From assembly GCA_916048055.1 (NCBI GenBank), contig CAJZHL010000021.1:186001-250000 (forward strand): a stretch of DNA of 64,000 nucleotides, written 5' to 3'. Origin of the DNA: Pedinophyceae sp. YPF-701 (taxonomy: Eukaryota > Chlorophyta > Pedinophyceae). The notes under the pieces are model-generated. The model saw only the letters and a list, made by a program, of their open reading frames with translations. It did not search any database and had not been told where the DNA came from. Position 1 is the stretch's first letter. Each line of letters opens with the position of its first letter. The translations under genes were made by a program, and so were the position numbers. This document shows, in pieces, positions 49,422 to 56,300 of the stretch.

Positions 49422-50906
49422 TCACGGCCCGTCCGGCGCTCGGAACGACACGTTGCTTCCCGTGTCCCGCGCCGGCGGTGCGACCATGCCCTCCGGGAGC
49501 CTCCGCAGCGCGCTGTCGTCGGCGCGCAGGTCCCGCAGCCGCCCGATCGACGACAGCGGCAGCCAGTCGTCCCTCAGCTGCGTGCACCGCCGCAGATCCA
49601 GCGCCTCTAGCGCCGTCAGCCCCTCGGGCACTCTGCGCACCGAGCTGTCCCAGGCGCGCAGCTCGCGGACGCCGTTCCGGGACGACTCCGGCAGGAAGTC
49701 CTCCGCGAGGCCGCGGCAGAACGAGACGTCGAGGACCTCGAGCGCTACGAGGCCCTCGGGCACCCTTCGCAGGAGACTCGACGCGGAGTGCAGCTCGCGG
49801 ACGCGGGCGCGGCTGGACAGCGGGAGGAAGTTGCCGTCCTCGAGCTTGGTGCAGCGCCGGACGTCGAGGAGCTCGAGCGAGGCCATGCCGTCCGGCACGC
49901 GCTGCAGCGCGCTGCCGTCGGCACGGAGCTCGCGCACACGGGCGCAGCTGGACGGCGGCACGAAGACGGGGTGCTGCAGCTCCTTGCAGCCGCGCACGTT
50001 GAGGTCCTCGAGCGCGAGCATGTTCTCGGGGAGCGCGCGCAGGCCGCTCCCGGCCGCCTGCAGCACGCGCACGCGCCCCGCTGATGACGACGGCAGCCAC
50101 TCCGCGTCGAGCTCCTTGCACAGACTCACGTCGACCTCCTCGAGCGCGGCCATCCCCGCGGGCAGCCGTCGCACCGCGCTGCTGTCCGCGCGCAGCACCC
50201 GCACCCGGCCCGCCGAGGACCCCGGCAGCCACTCGTGCGCGTCCAGCTCGTCGCACCCGCTCACGACGAGCACCTCGAGCGCCCCCATGCACTCCGGCAG
50301 CCGCTGCAGCTTCGACCCGCCCACCCGGAGCTCCCGCAGATTCTTCGCGACGTTCGCGGGCAGCCACCGCGCGCCCCACGCCGCCGACAGGTCGAACGCC
50401 AGCCGCGACACGTCGAGGTACTCCAGCCCCGTCATCTCCTCGGTGATCACGAGCCCCGGCGCGTTGCCGAGCGGGACGGCGCCGTACGACACGACGACCT
50501 CGGCGCGCGATATCGATGATAGACGCTCGGGGTCAGCACCAGCGCGGCGGTAGAGCCGCCACCGCGCGTCGTCGCTCGCCCACCCCAGGGACGACCGCGC
50601 TCTCGCAGAGACGCCGCCCTCGACCTTGCCGGCCACCGCCCACCCGATGCGGCGCTTGTGCGCCGTCCAGAGCGCACGGTCGCAGCTCTCGAACACGCAC
50701 GCGAGCATGCTGGACGACGTGGCGGCGAGGGCGGCGCGCGAGTGCTTGGGCAGGAGGCGGATGACGGTCGCGAGCGGGCCGCCGTCTTGCCCGCACCGCA
50801 GGTCGGCCAGGTGCGCGCGCGCGAGCGTGCACAGCCCTGCGTCGTCGATGCGCGCGCGCACGGAGGGCGTCGACGGACGCGCAACGTCGCCGCTGCACGC
50901 TGACAT
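49422..50906 (-). CDS. Leucine-rich-repeat protein with tandem 44-45-residue double-LRR units
   Basis: A single exon of 494 residues runs from ATG 50906. The N-terminal 150 residues are helical and contain a region that could be F-box-like (VIRLLPKHSRAALAATSSSM) followed by ALWTAHKRRIGW. From about 185 there are at least six tandem units of 44-45 residues, each made of two LRRs: one 'RVRxLRAxxSxxRRxPEGM' and one 'ALExLDVxxCxxLxxxxLP', linked by an 'L-P-x-S-S' corner. Examples are GRVRVLRADSSAVRRLPAGM and ALEVLDVSFCRGLAEDFLP. The repeats are highly alike, suggesting recent internal duplication. LRRs bind proteins; the specific partner is unknown. No membrane segment or signal peptide is visible. 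Confidence 0.82.
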   Translation of the reverse strand: MSACSGDVARPSTPSVRARIDDAGLCTLARAHLADLRCGQDGGPLATVIRLLPKHSRAALAATSSSMLACVFESCDRALWTAHKRRIGWAVAGKVEGGVSARARSSLGWASDDARWRLYRRAGADPERLSSISRAEVVVSYGAVPLGNAPGLVITEEMTGLEYLDVSRLAFDLSAAWGARWLPANVAKNLRELRVGGSKLQRLPECMGALEVLVVSGCDELDAHEWLPGSSAGRVRVLRADSSAVRRLPAGMAALEEVDVSLCKELDAEWLPSSSAGRVRVLQAAGSGLRALPENMLALEDLNVRGCKELQHPVFVPPSSCARVRELRADGSALQRVPDGMASLELLDVRRCTKLEDGNFLPLSSRARVRELHSASSLLRRVPEGLVALEVLDVSFCRGLAEDFLPESSRNGVRELRAWDSSVRRVPEGLTALEALDLRRCTQLRDDWLPLSSIGRLRDLRADDSALRRLPEGMVAPPARDTGSNVSFRAPDGP

Positions 50907-52524
50907 CGTGGAGGGGAGTGCCGTCGTCTCCTGGAGCGCCGCGTTCGTCGCCTGCGGGCGCGGGGACGGGTGCGGCTTGCGCTCTTGCCAGAGCGAGGCT
51001 GCGCACGCGCATCCATGGAAACGTCAATTTCCGCGCTACCGTGGAAGGGTGCCTGCCGTCTGAGCATAATCCACGTGCCATGCGCGGAATCAGTCCACGA
51101 ACGGCTGCGTGATCGTGGCTGTGGCTGTGGTGAGGTCCACGCCCGCGCCATCACGCCGGGCCCGCACGAGACGCGAGCTTCGCCGCCCCCCCACGACGAC
51201 CCGAGGGCGAGCGCGCGTCACGCGAAGAGCTCACCTGTCAGTGCACGACCGCACGTGGCGCGCCGCTGCTTGCACCCACTCGCGCACTCCCGTCCTCGCA
51301 CCCGGCGCCGCTGTGACCGCAACCGCGCAGCGTCAGTCCACGAGACGCCTAGTTCGGGCTACGTGTGCCAGCGGGCGCGACCACCTGGCCCACATCAGCC
51401 CACATCCGCCCCAAACCAGACACACGCCCCTGAGGGCCCTGGCAGGGCCCTGCGCACCGCGGCGCGACGAACACGCGCGTCGTTTGCCGAATCGCGATCG
51501 CGCGACGGGAGCTGCTGCCTTCCGGCTGCAGGTGCGTCGCCGTCGCACCAGTGGCCCGCTCTGTACCACGCCCACGGAGGGCGGTCCCGGTCCCACGCTC
51601 CTCGCGCGTGACCGAGGGCGCGACGTTGCGAGGTGCCGTCGGGCTGCCGTGTCTGTTTGGAGCTCCGGAGAGGTCACCTGAGTGAGTGACAGGTTAAATA
51701 TGTTCGGTTTTGCCCTCATAGTAAGAGAAACAATGTTTTGATCGCAAACATGTTTTGCCCTACTGGGGTGGCACGACACGGTTGGCGTGGGCGGTGCTGC
51801 GAGCCCAACAGTGCTCCACGAGCTCCGCCTATTGCGCGCCGGCTGGCGGGCCACACAACGCGCGCCCCGGCAAGGCAAGGAGCCGCGAGGGGCGATGCGC
51901 AAGGCACGAGGCAATGCGCATTCAAGCTCACCCCGGCGCATATCCCGAGGGATTCGAAACGTTCATGGCGCACTCGTCTGGGGCCCGAACGCGGCCCATG
52001 CAGTGGGAAGCGGCGCAGGGCGCGCTGTCCACGCTCGGACAGCTCGGTGTGTACGCCCCGCGATGAGCTGTGGCGACACACAGGGGCCGCAGCGAACGGG
52101 GGCGACCGTTGCGGTGCACTCCTGGATCTCGAGGCCTCAACTACGCTGCGTCGCGGCCGCTTGAACCACGACTTGAGTCTCAGTTGCCACGTCAAAATGG
52201 CTCGGAAAGCCCGGCCTATGCTGGGCTGTATTGCGAAGGGGTCGCTCGCGGCCGCGCGCCCCGCTGGAGCGTCGATGCGGTCGCCCACCTCCGCAGTGAT
52301 ATCGAGAGGCCACCCGGGCGCTTGTTGTCGGTACCGAGCCGCGGGACGTTGATTCTGCGGGGCTGTGCCACCACCAACTGCCACCTGACTCAACACTCCC
52401 CCCTGCGGCTGCTCGCGCCTTCCTAGGGCCCCCGCGCGGCGCTAGCCGCGCAGTCGCGGCGTACACCATCGAGCGCACCACAAGTCACGGAGCACACACC
52501 ACAAGTCGAGCTCGCACGGCAAAC
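50907..52524. other. Long divergent intergenic region (LRR gene / histone H4)
   Basis: About 1.6 kb and the largest gap in the window. An AT-rich patch lies at about 51690-51755 with a near-repeat of GTTTTGCCCT (about 51705 and 51752). The H4 promoter must be within the right end, but I see no clear TATA or histone-specific element. No coding region is supported. Confidence 0.45.
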
Positions 52525-52854
52525 ATGGCGCACCAGGACCACTCGCACGGCCGCGGCAAGGGCGGCAAGGGCCTCGGGAAGGGCGGCGCGCGCAGGCACC
52601 GCAAGCTGCTGCGCGACAACCTGCAGGGCATCACGAAGCCCGCGATCCGCCGCCTCGCGCGCCGCGGCGGCGTGAAGCGCATCTCTGGGCTGATCTACGA
52701 AGAGACCCGCGGCGTGCTCAAGCAGTTCCTGGAGAACGTCATCCACGACGCGGTGACGTACACGGACCACGCGAAGCGCAAGACGGTCACGGCGCTGGAC
52801 GTCGCGTACGCGCTGAAGCGCCAGGGCCGCACTATCTACGGCTTCGGCGTGTGA
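52525..52854 (+). CDS. H4: Histone H4, divergent, with N-terminal extension
   Basis: A single exon of 109 residues. The core is unmistakable H4: [20 protein letters not shown], then YEETRGVLK and [12 protein letters not shown], ending RTIYGFGV. Compared with the almost invariant eukaryotic H4, the N-terminus reads [13 protein letters not shown], adding about six residues rich in His before the usual GRGKGGKG. Lys16 is Arg ([10 protein letters not shown]), while Lys5, 8, 12 and 20 are kept. Other changes are V21L, I26L, V60Q, R67H, E74D, M84L, V87A, L97I and G102V. H4 pairs with H3 in the nucleosome. It is intronless, as is usual. No canonical histone 3' stem-loop was found just after the stop. 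It may be the only H4 or a variant copy. Confidence 0.97.
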
Positions 52855-53345
52855 GGGGGCGGGCCCGATGCGGGGCGAGGGCGCGGCGCGGAGGGCTGAG
52901 CTGCGGCCGGGAGGCGGGGCGATGTCGATGTGATCCGTTGCGCTGCGTGAATGGAGTCATGCGAGTGCTGTCGCGCGGGGCGTGCGGTGTAGGTGCCGTG
53001 GCTGCCTGCCGTGAGGTTGCCCGCAGAATCCGCGGGAGTGCCGCGGCACGCCGGTCTCGGGACCGTGCTCGCCCTCTCCGTCACGCATTTGCATCCCCTA
53101 CGGAAAAATTTGCGCCCTTCCGAAGCGCAAACGCCGCGGCGCGAGGCTCCCCACCAGCCGCCAACAACACACACGCACCAGCACGTTTTCCCGCGCCTTG
53201 CCGCCCTCCCCGCCCACGCCACGCCCAGTTCCGCCATCCTCACACTCACATACGTCGCGCACGCGCGTCCCGCCGCCAACGGCGCCACACCCCACACCCG
53301 CCCGCCTCCACCAAGCCTCCGCCATTCCGGCAACAATCACCGCCG
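52855..53345. other. Convergent intergenic region
   Basis: About 490 bp between the H4 stop and the COG7 stop. No element recognised. Confidence 0.5.
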
Positions 53346-56300
53346 TCACTGTCCGCGCATGCGCAGAATCGCGCTCGCCGCCGCCTCGCCCGCAGCACCC
53401 ATCGGCTGCACGGCCGCCCGCACCTTCGCCGCGCCGCCGCGCACCTCCCCTAGCGCCGCACCCCACGCCTGAAGCGACGGCGGCGCTGCCACCCCAAGCG
53501 CGCTCAACACGTTGCCGACGTACTCCAAGTCCGCCGCCATCTGCGCCGCCCCGGCGTCCGACAGCCGCGGCACGCCTGCGAGCGCCTGGATGACCACGTC
53601 CGCCGCGCTCGATCCCAGCGCGTCCAGCCAGCGCTCTGCATCAAAGTCCTGCGGCGCATCGTCGCCGTTCGCGGCGTCGGCGTCGTCTGCGCCCTCGGCG
53701 AGGGGCTCGAGGAGCGCGGGGAGGGCCATGAGGTGCTCGCCGACGGTGGTCGCGAAGAGCTGCGGGTATGCGGAGAAGGAAGGCGTGGGGGCGCTGCCGG
53801 CGGTGCGCGTGTCCTCGGTCCAGCAGGGGAGCGCTGCGACGCCGCTGACGGCCTTCGCGACGCCGTTGAGCGCGACGCCGCGCACGCACTCCTCCACCGC
53901 GCCGTCGACGTCCTGCACGACGCGACGCAACGCGCGGTAGACTTCATTCGCCCGTTCATGTCTCAAATATCAGTCCTCGACTGACAAACACTTCTTGATC
54001 GAGGGTTCTCCTCGCACGGAGCCTCAAGGTCGTGTCGCGCACCTTGAGGGCCTGCAGCGTGCTCCCGAACATGGCCTGTGCAGAGCTCGAACGCATGTTT
54101 GCCAGCACCCCCTCCAAACGCGCCTCCGTCTTAGGGCTGCTGCACACGCTCACGTGCAGCAACTCGGTGCCCTCCGGCGGCGCGGCGCCGCTCGGCGTCT
54201 CCAGGACGTCGCCGAGGCGCGAGGCGCACGTCACGCGCGCGTGGCTCTCCGCGCCGCGCACGACGGCGGCGAGAGCGTGCGCGGCGCGGATGGCGCGCAC
54301 GGCGGCGCCCGCAGCGTCCGAGGTCGCGGCTGCGCGCGCGGCCGAGGCGCGCAGCGCGGCGGCGAGCTTCGAGAGGAACGCCGGCGCGGTGTTGTCGACG
54401 GCGGTCGACAGCCCCGGGGACTCCGAACCCGCTGTCAGCGCCGCGCACGTGTCGACCGCTTCCTGCAGGGACGCCGGAGCGGAGCCAGTCGCAGTCTCGC
54501 CTCGCGCGCGCCAAGCATGAGTGCGCAACCGTCCAGGACATCCAGGCGGCTGTGCCGGCCCAGGCGGAGCTGCCGCCTGGGGCCCGTGCTCTCGTCGAGG
54601 AGGTCACGACGCTCGGTGTCCTGACGACGGGCCTGCCCACCGCGCCTGCTCCAGGATAGTACCGCACTGACCACCGCGCCGACGTACGCGAGGGCTCGAG
54701 GCCCGTCTGCCAGCGGGCGAGACCTTGTCGGCGGAGATGCGACATGCGCTGAGGCTCATCCGCCACGACATGCTCAAGCGGGGCAACGTTCGGGAGGCCC
54801 CACGTCGGACTGGGGCTCGCTGATCGTGCTGGTACGCAAGAAGCCCAGGACAGACGGGGACAATCGTCGGCTGTCAGCGGCTCCCCGTCGGGTCTTGGCT
54901 TCTTGCGTACCAGCACGATCGGCGAGCCCCAGTCCGACGTGCCAACCAAGCGGGGCGGAGCACCCCAACCAGACATGAACAAAAACAAAAAGGGACCAGA
55001 GTTCATGGATGCAGGTCTAGAATGAATCTTACCCGGAGACTGGACTCAAGCACCGGCGCGGCCTCCTCCAGCGCCCCGACCGCAGCGCCAAAGTCCCTCC
55101 GCGCCGCCTCGAGCCCCAGCTCGCCCTCTGCCGCCGCGAACTTCCCCGCCAACCACTCCTGCTGCATCTTGCCGTAATCGTGGACCGCGCGCGCGACGGG
55201 CAGCGTCGCATCGAGCGCGAGCGCGAGGAACTGCGCCCGGGGGATGCCCACACGCCCGCTGTCCCCCGCGCCCACCAGGAGACCCTCAATCTCGACTAGA
55301 AACCCGCCGCACGCCTTGACTGCCCCCTGGAGCGTCGCGAGCGCCCCGGACGCCGCCGCGCCGCCCTGCGCCGCGCCGAGCGCGCTCCGCAGCCGCGACG
55401 ACAGCGCGCCCTGCTGCGCCCGCACAAAGCTCGACAGCAGCGCCGCCAGCAGCTCAGCGGCCTTCGCAGGCGCCACCAGCCGCAGCCACTCCAGCTCGTC
55501 CGACGCGTACCCAGCGACGCGCGTGAAGAAGCCCTGCGGGCACACGGGGCGCGCGGGCGCCGCGGTCGAGTCGAGGCCTTCGGAGCCGACGCAAGACACG
55601 AAATCCATATCAATCCTTTCGCGAAACGTTGCGGCTGCCGTCTCACCTCGAGCCAGGTCGCGAAGCCGGACTCCGCGGGATTGCCCTGCCCCCACAGCGC
55701 CTGGAGCGCAGGCGTCGCGGCGCGCAGGTACAGCTGCGTCAGCGCGTCGGCGCGCGACAGCCCTTCGAGCAGCCCCAGCAGCGTTCGCGCCTGTCCCGCA
55801 TCACGAGACCGCACGGCCTGCCCGAGCGACGACTCCACGAGGGACTGCAGGCGGGTCTCGAGGGACCGCAGCTGCTCCTCGCGCGACGCGATGCCCGGAA
55901 CGGACCGCACGATCGCCACGGAGCGGCGCACGGAGGCCAAGATGGTGGCGGCGCGGGGGAGGTCGCCGCGCTGGAGGGCCGCGGACGCCTCCGGAAAGAG
56001 CTTGCCGACGCTCGCGGCCTCGGCGAGGGTCTCGCTGCGCGGCGGGGGGGCGCGGGGAGTGCGTTTGCGGCGGCGGCGCGCGCGCGCGCTGGTGTGCGTT
56101 CGTGATGTGTGAGGGTGGTGCAGGCGCGGGACGTACCGCGTGGACTCCATGCGGTCGCGCACGAGCGAGACGTCTTCGAGCTCGTGCGTGAGCGAGCGGC
56201 CGGTGTTCGCGATCTCGGCCATGGCGGCCTTGGCGCGCTGGGCGTTGCCGAGGAGCGCGCTGACGTCGCCCGTCACTCCCGCGACCTCCTGGGTCACGGC

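Follow-up and report, generated by a model that had tools for sequence, protein, structure and literature searches.

A probable replacement-type histone H4 variant with arginine at position 16 and a histidine-rich N-terminal extension in a pedinophyte green alga

To our knowledge, fewer variants have been described for H4 than for any other core histone. Divergent H4 proteins combining arginine at position 16 with longer tails are already published as the fungal H4E histones, which comprise hheA of Aspergillus nidulans and its relatives; according to the available part of that report, many H4Es carry arginine or even a non-polar residue at K16, their genes contain introns, their products extend further at the C-terminus and have few lysines in the tail, and H4E could not replace canonical H4.1 (PMC10878826). 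The rice variant H4.V, as described in the accessible sections of its report, has the length of H4, is 72.8% identical and loses K5, K8, K14, K16 and K20 by that paper's own list (PMC7617672). In trypanosomes, H4.V is defined by its location at the transcription termination sites of polycistronic units (PMC13052989, available part), and Oikopleura H4t carries three changes only and belongs to a male histone cluster, with no K16 change mentioned in the portion of the report at hand (PMC3156773). In yeast, H4 K16R was reported, in the part of the paper available, to give a constitutive interaction between H2A and the H4 tail and a readout of compacted chromatin even in G1 (PMC4755758).

The genome of strain YPF-701 (NIES-2566), a chlorophyte since described as Akinorimonas japonica (PMC12574857, available part), is assembled as 27.9 Mb in 32 contigs, and the window analysed here is a 64 000-nucleotide part of contig C21. 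A divergent histone H4 coding sequence was located on the forward strand at 52525..52854 from the open reading frame list, by phmmer and by genome search; it encodes 109 amino acids in one exon, and neither an internal stop nor a frame break was found in this interval. Against solved H4 chains phmmer gave E 2.3e-57 over query residues 6-108. In Pfam the CENP-T_C histone fold scored above its cut-off (34 versus 28.1 bits), while PF00125 scored under its own (21.3 versus 26.4 bits); full-length alignment to H4 and the histone fold place the protein among the H4 histones. The only in-frame ATG is that at 52525, in the context AAACATGG, and the frame upstream is open for 75 codons with no other ATG. 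The residues AHQDHSH (52528..52548, forward strand) stand in place of the Ser1 of canonical H4 and precede GRGKGG, which represents a net gain of six residues, and the reading frame ends at H4 residue 102 with no C-terminal extension. Upstream of the gene the window also contains a 494-amino-acid open reading frame on the reverse strand (49422-50906), in which leucine-rich-looking repeats were noticed by eye.

The variant differs from the canonical H4 of the same genome at 10 of 101 residues (2-102), namely K16R, V21L, I26L, V60Q, R67H, E74D, R77K, V87A, L97I and G102V. Tail lysines K5, K8, K12 and K20 are present, K16 being the sole tail lysine lost. Comparison with canonical H4 places codon 16 (CGC) at 52591..52593, the V60Q codon (CAG) at 52723..52725 and the R67H codon (CAC) at 52744..52746, all on the forward strand. 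With ten changes and the extension, the protein departs from the canonical sequence that characterizes a replication-dependent H4. The preliminary description had recognized an H4 with K16R and a histidine-rich extension of about six residues, together with at least nine further core changes including R67H and V60Q; the translation agrees in each respect, with nine changes besides K16R in residues 2-102. It had also named a sequencing error at codon 16 as an observation that would remove the key point, which does not apply here, because CGC and the AAG of the canonical copy differ at all three bases and one base-call error cannot yield R16.

Most of these residues are rare or absent among the database H4s listed for comparison. 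Among those covering each site, R16 was found in 0 of 163, L21 in 0 of 165, L26 in 2 of 166, Q60 in 1 of 213, H67 in 4 of 213, D74 in 0 of 213, A87 in 1 of 213, I97 in 0 of 209 and V102 in 0 of 187, counts which are not frequencies in nature because the sample of 214 H4s derives from two query-biased searches, each listing its best 120 hits out of thousands, from a database clustered at 90% identity. Lysine at position 77 is common in the same sample (181 of 213), so R77K is not unusual.

A whole-genome search with the variant returned seven places including the variant itself. Four are canonical H4 genes, on C1, C8 and C19 (two), which encode identical proteins over residues 2-102, all with K16, and each of which adjoins an H3 gene in divergent orientation. 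Of the remaining two, the one on C5 is a 73% identical copy and the one on C25 a partial match of 41%. Searches for histone genes found no other match on contig C21, and the variant gene has neither an H3 partner nor a surrounding histone cluster.

A 3' hairpin is located ∼55-85 bases past the stop in all eight canonical H3/H4 genes (for example ACTGGTGTTATTCAACACCAC followed by CGGAA) and also in all six H2A/H2B genes examined; in an alignment of the 14 sites the stem, the flanks and a downstream CGGAA-like element are conserved. A genome-wide search for GGTGTTN{3,6}AACACC gave 19 places, of which 11 adjoin these histone genes, against three for the reversed control pattern. The genome also has one match for an SLBP RNA-binding domain. 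A covariance model (R2) built from the genome's own 14 histone stem-loop sites scored these training sites at 45-62 bits, by construction, and detected nothing else above 10.5 bits in 18 loci (101 kb). The 10-kb locus of the variant (L014) gave no match even when E values as high as 10 were admitted, and in the stretch after the gene (52855..54355, forward strand) the best score with filters off was 3.4 bits, at 53984. A hairpin search found a GC-rich hairpin of unrelated sequence, CCGCGGGAGTGCCGCGG, on the forward strand 175 nt past the variant stop. Neither the divergent H4 and H3 genes on C5, nor divergent H3 genes on C8 and C29, nor H2A-like genes at C19:638360, C19:639409 and C10:1489901 gave an R2 match of their own; the two on C19 (L043 and L046, reverse strand) are H2A variants near a canonical H2A/H2B pair. 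The Rfam histone stem-loop model gave no match over its gathering score in seven loci, canonical ones included, and a second search with it gave two canonical sites only, at 23.4 and 19.8 bits against a gathering score of 34, in a sub-cut-off range where matches are also obtained in 14 of 14 prokaryote controls. Because the Rfam model reaches threshold at no locus, the stem-loop evidence comes from within this genome, from its own conserved set of sites.

Seventeen nine-mers recur in the upstream stretches of all four canonical H4 genes, and none of them is present in the 300 nt upstream of the variant (52225..52524, forward strand). The variant lacks the 3' stem-loop of a canonical replication-dependent H4 gene and shows the features of a replacement-type histone, namely a gene of its own, a distinct protein and no stem-loop, although an absent stem-loop alone does not prove replication independence.

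Canonical H4 copies differ among themselves by 0-3 synonymous changes, whereas 32-33 synonymous and 17 nonsynonymous changes separate the variant from them (dS ∼0.6, dN/dS 0.14), a pairwise average that hides near-zero residue change on the canonical branch. Random placement of 50 base changes (5000 trials) produced a mean of 32.9 and a minimum of 23 residue changes, against the 10 observed, and introduced a stop in 72% of trials; the variant gene has none. With 50% of the synonymous changes assigned to the canonical branch, the variant branch departs from neutrality at P = 0.003 with a dN/dS of ∼0.37, and with 70% so assigned P rises to 0.16. Because the divergence is mostly synonymous (33 versus 17), these data suggest that the variant is likely to be under constraint, depending on how the changes split between branches; the argument would be weaker if the canonical branch had taken most of the synonymous changes, in which case a recently silenced copy would be conceivable.

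The same figures bear on whether the gene might be a redundant backup, that is, an extra H4 gene which, having lost its stem-loop, is drifting as constraint relaxes and serves no separate function; K16R would be tolerated because canonical H4 supplies the bulk. Ten residue changes, against none among the canonical copies, agree with such drift, as would a variant-branch dN/dS of 0.6-0.9, which is obtained if most synonymous change is placed on the canonical branch. However, the frame has remained intact after a dS of ∼0.6, only 10 changes are seen where random placement predicts 33, and the changes other than the extension all leave a histone fold that can be aligned over its full length; we regard redundancy as conceivable and, on balance, unlikely.

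Searches for an ortholog returned canonical, fused or duplicated H4s, with no clear ortholog among the best 120 listed of 7989 candidates scored with the full-length protein or among the best 120 of 5531 hits to residues 57-109; the variant itself is missing from the lists and the database is clustered at 90% identity, so an ortholog may be hidden and this absence proves little. Matches with 97-99% query coverage were rejected as orthologs, being canonical H4s with upstream sequence and not the same extension. A metagenome H4 (P0065) has Q60 in common with the variant and a weak tree pairing with it (85/77), but has K16. In a scan of viral contigs the patterns matched in 26 stretches, none of which was confirmed. 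A tree was constructed from 16 rows, consisting of the three H4 types of this genome and 13 H4s taken from the database sample of 214, selected by filters for an intact GRGKGGKG start, length and non-identity; none of its 13 inner branches was well supported. A clade of the C21 and C5 variants was neither supported nor rejected (p-AU 0.505), and one clade of all three of the alga's own H4 types was not rejected (p-AU 0.356). D74 and I97 are common to the C21 and C5 proteins, which hints at a common origin of the two, a question that trees of 100-residue H4s cannot decide. Judged from its sequence, the variant gene appears to be a separate, older duplicate.

The C5 paralogue (C5:99392-99703, in locus L019), found by genome search, resembles the C21 variant in its altered N-terminus and in having no stem-loop match, besides D74 and I97. 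It differs in that its tail, MTAKKYTYGRGKGGPKRRPLPLN, rewrites the K8-K20 region, in its lower identity (73%) and in its position, as it lies on the same strand as an H3 variant and ∼2.3 kb before it. A 3' fragment of an H3 gene is found just after it (C5:99798-99884). The H3 variant itself (L019:7033-7443, where L019 is C5:95000-104500) is 91% identical to canonical H3, has no stem-loop match and carries K27A plus T11V, T22A, A24F, A31R, K37R and others. A natural H3 that lacks K27 is of interest in itself, and the C21 variant gains interest beside the C5 H4 and the K27A H3.

Further divergent histones were observed elsewhere. The 57-kb contig C25 has a third, very divergent H4-like gene (L020, from 3875 with a second part from 4351), apparently split by an intron with putative splice sites, whose parts read MPGRGGPKRHQ...EHARQE and then MTVRPLHVFLALKRRGVSLYGAPG with a long C-terminal continuation. 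Divergent H3s with altered tails, 68% and 55% identical, are present at C8:273315-273641 (L026) and C29:252879-253265 (L027); their loop 1 is slightly longer by eye, and they are candidate centromeric H3s.

It is quite improbable, in our estimate, that the C21 variant is a stage-specific packaging histone of a gamete, zygote or cyst, belonging to one set together with the divergent H4 and the K27A H3 of C5, in a role like that of Oikopleura H4t. The testis-specific H4t is found among the Oikopleura male histones (PMC3156773, available part), neither the C21 nor the C5 H4 has a stem-loop match, and the two residues they have in common are those seen in 0 of 213 and 0 of 209 of the listed database H4s; against this, the two-variant clade gains no support, though it is not rejected either, the two genes are on separate contigs, and multiplication is reported to be by binary fission in the part of the species description available (PMC12574857). 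A parallel replacement H3/H4 set lacking the main tail switch residues (K16R H4, K8-K20-rewritten H4, K27A H3) likewise seems to us distinctly unlikely; were it to exist, its nucleosomes would be shielded from acetyl-K16 and methyl-K27 signalling, for a chromatin domain or a life stage. A silent pseudogene or an assembly or sequencing artefact is very improbable indeed, given the three base differences required for R16, the absence of stops and frameshifts where 72% of random placements give a stop, and the distinct flanks on a 436-kb contig.

We favour the reading that the gene encodes a single-copy replacement-type H4 variant, probably made alongside canonical H4, because four canonical H4 genes with stem-loops exist beside an intact, mostly synonymously diverged copy with neither a stem-loop nor the shared upstream motifs. 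The preliminary description had offered two options. A reorganization of H4K16 signalling in the species is not supported, in view of the four H4 genes with K16, two encoded MYST acetyltransferase domains and SIR2 matches at four places in the genome, whereas a specialized variant is supported by the single copy, the missing 3' stem-loop, the solitary position and the signs of constraint. The search for other H4 genes which it had proposed yielded the four canonical genes; it had expected a silent divergent copy if several such genes occurred and this one was not expressed, and the first half of that statement holds. As the four other genes encode canonical H4 with K16, this residue is not replaced as such, and the alga has not given up H4K16; the altered H4 is probably an additional, specialized histone instead of a sign that the H4 system as a whole has been rewritten.

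As a replacement-type variant, its mRNA would escape stem-loop/SLBP (S-phase) control and would be polyadenylated, so that the protein could be synthesized when the cell is not in S phase, or at a particular stage. The protein would pair with H3 and be deposited in nucleosomes. Arg16 would hold the positive charge of a deacetylated lysine and not be acetylatable, with the other four tail lysines remaining, and variant nucleosomes would therefore locally resemble permanently K16-deacetylated, compaction-prone chromatin. A natural H4 in which essentially one tail acetylation site is altered and the others are kept offers a ready-made experiment, as it would reveal how a cell uses nucleosomes fixed without acetylation at K16. 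Both the histidine-rich lead and the missing Ser1-Gly-Arg start may alter N-terminal processing; loss of the Ser-Gly-Arg-Gly start presumably removes the NatD acetyltransferase site, and metal binding by the histidines of the extension is a speculation. Residues 67, 74 and 87 lie near the H4-H2B contact region, so that the variant might also alter tetramer-dimer stability.

A description of this algal protein was not found in the literature searched, which leaves out most subscription papers, and the main text of a recent survey of algal H2A variants contains neither 'histone H4' nor 'Pedino' (PMC12459048). Of the described systems, trypanosome H4.V is similar in being encoded by a single-copy gene that stands apart from those for canonical H4 (PMC13052989, available part), and is distinguished by its definition from genomic location. 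Oikopleura H4t, too, is altered at V21 and within the alpha-2 helix, and is likewise a second H4 isoform of one species (PMC3156773, available part). Like fungal H4E, the variant is a divergent extra H4 beside canonical genes, with a longer N-terminal tail, a changed K16 and a basic patch more or less kept, as far as the accessible account describes it (PMC10878826); unlike H4E, it has one exon and no C-terminal extension, and it keeps K5, K8, K12 and K20. Rice H4.V, also from the green lineage, is likewise a lone divergent protein beside numerous canonical H4s of identical sequence and has lost the K16 acetylation site (PMC7617672, available part), whereas the algal variant has 90% identity over residues 2-102, lacks no tail lysine but K16 and carries the extension in addition.
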